Source: Phycisphaerae bacterium (GTDB lineage: Bacteria; Planctomycetota; Phycisphaerae; UBA1845). Taken from it: DNA of 64,000 nt. Under the pieces are notes generated by a model that was given only the letters and a program-made list of their open reading frames with translations, was not told the DNA's origin and did not search any database. The translations under genes and the position numbers were made by a program. The stretch lies in assembly GCA_029260235.1 (NCBI GenBank), contig JAJDDP010000102.1:1-64000 (forward strand), given 5' to 3'. Shown piece by piece: positions 40,771-42,920 of this stretch (position 1 is its first letter; the number at the start of each line of letters is the position of its first letter).

Positions 40771-41514
40771 ATGCCAATCTACCGGATCCTACAGTTCAGT
40801 TGTATCGTTTTGCTGGTGACCGGCACGCTTGCCCAAGCAGGCCCTGGGCAACGCGGCGGAAGCGGCGACCGGAGTAGAGAAGGGAAAAGGCGTCAGCGTG
40901 ATGACAACGCCCTGAAGATTGGGGATGCGGCTCCGGCGCTCAGGCTCAAGACCTTGGACGGGCAGAAAAAGGTTTCAGTGTTAGCGGCGGAGGCTAGGAA
41001 GCCAGTCATCCTGTTCTTCGGCAGCTACACATGACCGCCCTTCTTGCGCCAGGTTGGCGCCTTAGAGAGCACCTATCAGAATTACAAGGACATCGCGGAT
41101 TTCTACATTGTCTACATCCACGAAGCCCACGCCGCCGACGGCAAGCGTCCCACAGACTTCGCCAAGGAAAAAGGGATCACCGAACCAGCCACCTTCGATC
41201 AGCGCTGCACGGTCGCCACCCGGCTGATCGAGGAAAAGAAGCTGACCATTCCCTGCCTGATCGATGGGATGGATAACGCCGTGGCGGATGCTTACCACGC
41301 CCATCCCGATCGCGTTTTCTTGATCCGCACCGACGGCAAGCTCGGCATGGCTGGGAACCGTGGCCCCCGCGGATTCAAACCCGCTTTGGACAAGGTGGCC
41401 GACTGGCTGGCTGAGTACAAGAAGACGGGAACTGAACCGCCTCTGGCCTTCGGCATCCTGGAGAAACCATCCAAGAAGAGGTCCAATCGACGGTCATCCT
41501 CAGCCGAACGCTGA
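40771..41514 (+). CDS. deiodinase-like secreted selenoprotein (in-frame UGA = selenocysteine)
   Basis: The frame from the ATG at 40771 (GGAG just upstream) meets TGA at 41032-41034 and continues without shift to 41514. The codon lies in FFGSYT-U-PPF, the active-site motif of iodothyronine deiodinases, where U is selenocysteine. The conserved family blocks follow in order: DFYIVYIHEAHAADG, then IPCLIDGMDNAVADAY, PDRVFLI, and NRGPRGFKP. Read through, the protein is 247 residues with Sec88. A signal peptide (RILQFSCIVLLVTGTLAQA) and basic linker precede the thioredoxin-like fold, so it should be exported. Vertebrate deiodinases remove iodine from thyroid hormones; bacterial relatives have no settled substrate. 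A hairpin follows the UGA. A broken gene is the alternative, but the intact downstream family blocks argue against it. Confidence 0.9.
41046..41060 (+). promoter_or_regulatory. candidate bacterial SECIS hairpin for the deiodinase-like gene
   Basis: A perfect 6-base stem (41046-41051 with 41055-41060) with a GGT loop, or five pairs with an AGGTT loop, begins 11 bases after the UGA. The first loop guanine is about 17 bases from the UGA, within the usual 16-37 range for bacterial SECIS elements. It lies inside the coding frame, as expected in bacteria. Confidence 0.65.
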
Positions 41515-41654: not shown

Positions 41655-42221
41655 CTACTCTTCGACATAGGCGTCAAGCCTGACACCTAGCGCGTCTGCG
41701 ATTCGATTGACGTAGGCGAAGTAGGCAATCACCAACACCGCGTCGAGGATGGCCCGGTCCAGGAGACCGACTTCACGGAGCGGGTTCAGATCAGCCTCGG
41801 TCATTTGATCAGGCGTGCGGGTTAGCTTGGCTGCGTAGTCGAGCAATGCCCGTTCGCGCGGTTCAAGCGGAGCAGCCGCGTAGTCGTTCGCGAGCTGGGT
41901 CACGAACTCTGGCTGACGAGTGCGTTTGGTTAGTCGGGCCAGACCGGCCGAGTGATGCTTCAGTCAGTAATGACAGCCGTTGATGGCTGAAACTACGACT
42001 GCGATCATCTCTCGCTCAGGGCGAGTCAGCCCGCTCCGGCCGAGCATGGTTGTCCGGTACATCTGAACGTGATCGCGTAATGATTCAGGATGCAGGCTGT
42101 GGATCTTGAGGATGTTGTCCACCACGCCCCCCGCCGGGTCGGTGTTGGCTGCGTACAGCTCAGCCAGCGCGCCCTCAGCTTCATCCTCAGGGATAGTCTC
42201 GATCCAGGCGTCTCGGTTCAT
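41655..42221 (-). CDS. AhpD-like peroxidase-related selenoprotein with CxxU motif
   Basis: The frame from the ATG at 42221 meets TGA at 41966-41964 and continues in the same frame to 41655, giving 188 residues with Sec86. The joined sequence reads INGCHY-U-LKHH, in which the second cysteine of the CxxC...H motif of carboxymuconolactone-decarboxylase/AhpD-type proteins is Sec (Cys83, Sec86). The two halves match the start (AELYA, ILKIHSLHPESLRDH, LTRPEREMIAVVVSA) and the end (PRERALLDYAAKLTRTPDQMTEAD, VNRIADALGV) of peroxidase-related AhpD-like proteins of this length. It should be a cytoplasmic thiol/selenol peroxidase or reductase. It starts 21 bases after the iodotyrosine-deiodinase-like gene, so the two probably share a message. 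Confidence 0.88.
41934..41951 (-). promoter_or_regulatory. candidate bacterial SECIS hairpin for the AhpD-like gene
   Basis: On the minus strand a 6-base stem with one bulged C and a GGTCT loop starts 12 bases after the UGA; the loop begins 18 bases from it. The GGTCT loop resembles the AGGUCU apical loop of the E. coli formate dehydrogenase SECIS, which also has a bulged base in its stem. Structure was judged by eye only. Confidence 0.65.
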
Positions 42222-42242: not shown

Positions 42243-42920
42243 TCAAGACTTGTTCCATTGCAGCGCGTCCTTCAAGGGCTTCTTGACCAGGTCCGGCACG
42301 GTGCAATCTTCTGCTGGGTAACCCACCGGAATTAGCAGGTAGGGTTTTTCGTTGACTGGGCGCCCCAGGATCGTCTGAAGAAACGTCATCGGACTTGGCG
42401 TGTGGGTCAACGTGGCTAAGCCTACCTGGTGACAGGCGTTGAGAAACATGCCAGCCGCAATGCCGGTTGATTCGGACGGGTAGTAATTGACCTGCTTTGC
42501 CCCATCGTGAGTCTCCCAATCGATGCGAAAAATGACCACCAGCCAAGGCACGATTTCCAGATAGGGTTTCTCTGGGCCAGTACCGATCGGCTCCAAGGCG
42601 TCCAGCCACGCTTGGGGCATGCGGTGACCGTAGCTCAATCTTTCCTCTTCCTCTGCCGCGAGCCTAACTTCGCGCTTCAGCGTCTCGTCGTCCACAGCGA
42701 CGAAGCGCCAAGGTTTCCGATTCGCCCCGCTGGGGGCTGTGTGTGCCACCGCCAAGAGCGTCTCGATCAGTTGCCTGGAAACCGGCTTCGGCGAGAAATA
42801 GCGGCAACTTCGCCGCTGGGACATGTCGCTCAACAGATCGTCCGCCCGTTTCTGCATCCATTCCGGGTCGGGCAAAGTCGGGCGATACGGAATCATTTTG
42901 GCAGGCACGGCAACACTCAT
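42243..42920 (-). CDS. iodotyrosine-deiodinase-like flavin reductase
   Basis: A 225-residue nitroreductase-fold protein. FMN-binding parts are RRSCRYFS, HTAPSGANRKPW and LGRPVNEKPYLLIPVGYPAEDCTVPDL. The active-site lid EEEERLSYGHRM...GPEKPYL keeps Glu93, Tyr97 and Lys118 at the same spacing (4 and 21 residues) as human IYD Glu157, Tyr161 and Lys182, which hold the amino acid part of iodotyrosine. General nitroreductases lack this triad. It is therefore expected to reduce halotyrosines with FMN in the cytoplasm, releasing halide. The ATG at 42920 is uncertain; a second ATG lies eight codons downstream. It is the first gene of a probable two-gene operon with the AhpD-like selenoprotein. Confidence 0.88.
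   Translation of the reverse strand: MSVAVPAKMIPYRPTLPDPEWMQKRADDLLSDMSQRRSCRYFSPKPVSRQLIETLLAVAHTAPSGANRKPWRFVAVDDETLKREVRLAAEEEERLSYGHRMPQAWLDALEPIGTGPEKPYLEIVPWLVVIFRIDWETHDGAKQVNYYPSESTGIAAGMFLNACHQVGLATLTHTPSPMTFLQTILGRPVNEKPYLLIPVGYPAEDCTVPDLVKKPLKDALQWNKS

Follow-up and report, generated by a model that had tools for sequence, protein, structure and literature searches.

Three neighbouring genes in the window (the whole stretch of DNA analysed, 64,000 nucleotides) lie within 2.2 kb of one another and encode a homologue of iodotyrosine deiodinase (IYD), an AhpD-like protein and a deiodinase-like protein of the PF00837 family (Table 1). The AhpD-like gene starts 21 bp past the stop codon of the IYD gene, downstream on the same strand, a gap that suggests that the two are probably co-transcribed. 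A simple scan gave no promoter-like site near the genes, and neither an Rfam match nor a tRNA was found in the window.

Table 1. Features of the IYD locus and its surroundings in the window
Feature	Position	Strand	Remarks
Deiodinase-like (PF00837, T4_deiodinase) selenoprotein gene	40771..41514	+	FGSYTUPPF; convergent to the AhpD-like gene
UGA and candidate SECIS of the deiodinase-like gene	41032..41061	+	Stem GCGCC/GGCGC, AGGUU loop
AhpD-like peroxidase-related selenoprotein gene (TIGR01926)	41655..42221	-	NGCHYU, TGA codon 86 as Sec
UGA and candidate bacterial SECIS of the AhpD-like gene	41930..41966	-	GGUCU apical loop; folding signal weak
IYD homologue	42243..42920	-	225 aa, ATG start; FMN motifs, lid residues E93/Y97/K118, T114, T174
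Active-site lid segment of IYD	42525..42680	-	About residues 81-132; from position and lid-only search
Lys118 codon of IYD gene	42567-42569	-	Computed from the ORF start at 42920
Tyr97 codon of IYD gene	42630-42632	-	Computed from the ORF start at 42920
Glu93 codon of IYD gene	42642-42644	-	Computed from the ORF start at 42920

The IYD homologue is a member of the nitroreductase family PF00881 by family search and carries the FMN-binding motifs RRSCR and PSGA..PW (RRSxR and SGA..PW in the nitroreductase fold), which the earlier note had already described as kept and which are seen in the alignment. The same note had claimed that Glu93, Tyr97 and Lys118 share the spacing of human Glu157, Tyr161 and Lys182, and had named their misalignment in a full alignment as a refutation. 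The triad proved to be in exact register, in sequence as in structure: the three residues occupy the columns of E91, Y95 and K116 of the Haliscomenobacter hydrossis enzyme (HhIYD, 5KO7) in the alignment with relatives, with no gap between them; mouse IYD (3GB5) has its triad in the same gap-free columns; and structural alignment to human IYD (4TTC) sets residue 7 of the model against human residue 71, an offset of 64 that equates 93, 97 and 118 with human 157, 161 and 182. When the protein is shuffled, the bare spacing E-x3-Y-x20-K turns up 46 times in 2000 (about 2%), and one of the 493 non-IYD ORFs of at least 200 aa in the neighbourhoods has it too, so that taken alone it is weak evidence. 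It is the full-length match, rather than the spacing, that makes the observation certain: 5KO7 is the top match in a sequence search of the PDB (E 6e-63), followed by the mouse and human enzymes (E 6e-44 to 1e-42) and by 6PZ0, also called IYD (E 3e-19), with the best other nitroreductase at E 1.8e-12. A search with a 60-residue stretch of the lid alone returned, below E 1, IYDs exclusively. Among the NCBIfam equivalogs tried as other identities, BluB (TIGR02476) gave 46.3 bits, below its cut-off of 150, and FbiB and others were likewise far under their cut-offs.

Structural modelling of the protein agrees with the sequence searches. An AlphaFold2 model built from 47 sequences has a mean pLDDT of 91.4, with values of about 80-85 in the lid. 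The first 25 rows of a Foldseek search with this model are all IYD chains, and the best of them are substrate-bound enzymes (TM 0.90-0.93 by model length); the PDB includes HhIYD both with iodotyrosine and with 2-iodophenol. In VIA-align, the model superposes on the ligand-bound structures 5KO8 and 4TTC with a Z score of 27.0 and an rmsd of 1.3-1.4 Å over 217-218 residues, and the first non-IYD structure has a Z score of 18.2, with no other non-IYD higher.

The tree, which comprises 28 rows including 24 of the 47 alignment rows (every second one, the window included), groups the window IYD with Planctomycetota rows (support 100/99). The bacterial rows also take in HhIYD and mouse IYD, the latter on a long branch. 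Two nitroreductase paralogues from the same genome, those of its PF00881 proteins that could be aligned, lie outside IYD (100/100) on long branches; they share 20-23% identity with IYD, and the triad is not in register in either. Compared with the known enzymes, the window protein is 47-50% identical to HhIYD (5KO7, 5KO8, 5KRD) and has the same triad and the same fold with a closed lid, although the host of HhIYD belongs to the Bacteroidota and the two lids differ at positions such as A104 and A108, which face E102 and D106 of HhIYD. Identity to mammalian IYD/DEHAL1 (4TTC, 3GFD) is 37-40%, and the E157/Y161/K182 and Thr239 positions are kept. Mammalian IYD, which in the thyroid recovers iodide from iodotyrosine, has an N-terminal membrane anchor, whereas the window ORF is without such an anchor and without the thyroid context. 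The assignment of the protein to IYD is supported by sequence and predicted fold, and deiodinase activity is likely, given that HhIYD and the mammalian enzymes are homologues. The reading as a soluble bacterial iodotyrosine deiodinase is given a probability of roughly 0.87.

Bacterial IYDs are already known and their structures solved, and the window gene is one more case, well supported, of a family common in its phylum (65 of 199 genomes with a match at E <=1e-20). The same threshold retains 65 of 114 genomes of the order. Among 60 relatives, 53 match at E <=0.001, the weak tail consisting of other nitroreductases, and 42 stretches in 41 genomes lie at E < 1e-50. A scan of GTDB genomes confirmed 567 relatives, and the best 80 of these, together with 14 loci from the relatives, form a set of 94 in which some records occur twice. 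Because the GTDB loci overlap those of the relatives (some GTDB contigs agree with contigs of the relatives in length and place) and the order search overlaps the 60 relatives, these counts are not independent. No viral relative was confirmed.

The triad, with T114 and T174, is kept in all 94 loci of this set, a count that for the 80 GTDB loci (the best of 567) is partly circular, since the search used two patterns and one, KP[FY]L..., includes Lys118; it is kept in 40 of 41 loci of a second set, window included, where the count is not circular. Such near-invariance makes the triad a rule of the family and no peculiarity of the window gene. The surprise that the earlier note implied at finding it in a bacterial protein is therefore misplaced, all the more as a passage of PMC13078365 already speaks of IYD 'from mammals to bacteria'; within the superfamily, Iyd is also named a specialised subgroup in a passage of PMC6017928. 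One IYD-clade relative (L159, G041:C1:135172-135747; 52% identity) has D-Y-K in place of the triad and both conserved Thr replaced by Ala, which makes it a natural lid variant.

Characterised IYDs are homodimers with FMN bound at the interface, in which the triad grips the zwitterion of the halotyrosine, ammonium and carboxylate together, and the lid closes over the flavin; in the human enzyme Thr239 contacts FMN N5 and favours one-electron steps. By analogy with these enzymes, the window protein would form a homodimer binding FMN at the dimer interface. Glu93, Tyr97 and Lys118 would hold the ammonium and carboxylate groups of a 3-halotyrosine, folding the lid over the flavin, and Thr174, at the position of human Thr239, may contact FMN N5 and favour one-electron steps. 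Two electrons would then reduce the carbon-halogen bond, yielding iodide (or bromide or chloride) and tyrosine. The most likely role of the enzyme in the cell would be the salvage or detoxification of halotyrosines.

Under the standard code the AhpD-like gene appears as two ORFs; with TGA codon 86 read through, it gives a single protein of 188 aa (INGCHYU) that scores 157.1 bits with TIGR01926, above the cut-off of 81.8. As in AhpD-like CxxU selenoproteins, the TGA stands at the second Cys position of the CxxC motif (CHYU). The family, listed among prokaryotic selenoproteins in a passage of PMC13188914, has matches in 38 of the 60 relatives at E <=0.001, and each row at E < 1e-30 carries a single in-frame TGA, to which one row adds a TAG. 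The 67-nt fold of the candidate SECIS is no better than shuffles; its loop GU recurs in 9 of 20 homologues against 4.0 expected on shuffling.

The deiodinase-like gene has AAGGAG before its ATG and encodes a protein with a hydrophobic, signal-like N terminus. Read through the TGA, the frame contains FGSYTUPPF and EAHAADG and scores 96.2 bits with PF00837 (gathering cut-off 27), and the nearest solved chains are type II (E 3e-20) and type III (E 1e-19) iodothyronine deiodinases, with which its UPPF and EAH..DG motifs align. The His of the PQHR motif of the type III enzyme, however, faces a Pro in the window protein, and for this reason an animal-like binding of iodothyronine is doubtful. All 27 PF00837 homologues aligned (window included; 31 loci given) have an in-frame TGA, followed by a small-loop hairpin at a near-constant place; the loop GU is present in 22 of the 27 against 6.9 expected on shuffling. 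The SECIS hairpin of this gene is clear, more so than that of the AhpD-like gene. Deiodinase-like selenoproteins of bacteria are described in a passage of PMC1088965, which argues against iodothyronine deiodination by them, and both this family and the AhpD-like one are known prokaryotic selenoproteins (passages in PMC13188914, PMC1088965, PMC2398784 and PMC9312934). A second PF00837 copy is present elsewhere in the genome (G000:C83:33845-34312).

Could the window protein be a general FMN nitroreductase or flavin reductase that has the triad by coincidence? Its membership of PF00881 would allow this, as would the ease with which the bare spacing appears in shuffled sequences, but sequence, lid-only search, predicted fold and tree all point to IYD, so that the preference of the earlier note for IYD over a general nitroreductase holds as to family and the coincidence is highly improbable. 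An alternative that deserves more weight, though it too is unlikely, is that the protein is of the IYD clade but works in the cell on a different compound, zwitterionic or phenolic, and turns over halotyrosine as a side activity. It would fit the wide spread of IYD without a conserved halogen-related neighbour. Indeed, ORF clustering around the 94 and 41 loci gave no family-wide partner of IYD, the top clusters consisting of the IYD frame and of shadow ORFs antisense to it, and no recurrent neighbour of halogen metabolism was recognised in these neighbourhoods. Moreover, the neighbours in the small clade resemble housekeeping genes (glycine-cleavage proteins and ATP synthase subunits, named by eye from their sequences). 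Against this stands the conservation of Thr174 and of the very residues with which known IYDs bind the zwitterion of an amino acid.

A broader proposal joins iodotyrosine deiodination to the neighbouring genes, the three products forming one organohalogen module of an exported selenoenzyme, a cytoplasmic flavoenzyme and a partner that reduces peroxides or thiols. The deiodinase-like selenoenzyme would handle iodinated or oxidised-iodine compounds outside the cytoplasm, IYD would dehalogenate the resulting halotyrosines inside, and the AhpD-like protein would supply reducing power or remove peroxide. The close packing of the three genes and the 21 bp between two of them speak in its favour, as does the co-occurrence of IYD and PF00837: PF00837 is found in 37 of 65 IYD genomes of the phylum and in 34 of 134 others (odds ratio 3.9, Fisher p 1.9e-5), and in 30 of 65 IYD genomes of the order against 7 of 49 others (p 5e-4), but these tests ignore shared descent, genome size and completeness. 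Among the 60 relatives, co-occurrence has a p of 0.0017 for IYD and PF00837, 0.0015 for IYD and the AhpD-like gene, and 0.0002 for PF00837 and the AhpD-like gene. The first of these associations falls to p 0.03 in the window's own family and 0.59 in other families, and is therefore partly a matter of descent. The deiodinase-like gene, furthermore, lies on the opposite strand, and the cluster as a whole is seen solely in the window: among 135 overlapping IYD loci searched, only the window's own has an AhpD-like neighbour, and no IYD locus but this one has a PF00837 neighbour. IYD and PF00837 occur together in 66 genomes; they share a contig in 4 of these and lie within 40 kb of each other only in the window, although many assemblies are fragmented and some linkage is hidden. 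Given a cluster seen nowhere else, a weak association within families and tests that ignore descent, a common pathway is left as an improbable reading, and the sequence of steps outlined for it is just as doubtful. Were it true, bacterial deiodinase-like proteins would gain an iodine-linked role after all. An IYD gene beside a deiodinase-like selenoprotein gene, in a phylum whose genomes combine the two families more often than independence predicts, offers a concrete and testable start on the question of why bacteria keep IYD.

The genome is Sec-decoding and contains genes of the selenocysteine machinery. A selC gene was detected at 64.9 bits, over its cut-off, with a model that also responds weakly to other tRNAs; selB scores 363.7 bits and is adjoined by selA (566.9 bits). 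The selD gene (371.2 bits; G000:C87:17813-18736, minus strand) has an in-frame TGA and hence probably encodes a selenoprotein itself. In four relatives (G010:C54, G009:C80, G011:C80 and G001:C165) the PF00837 gene and selB are about 1 kb apart or less, on opposite strands.
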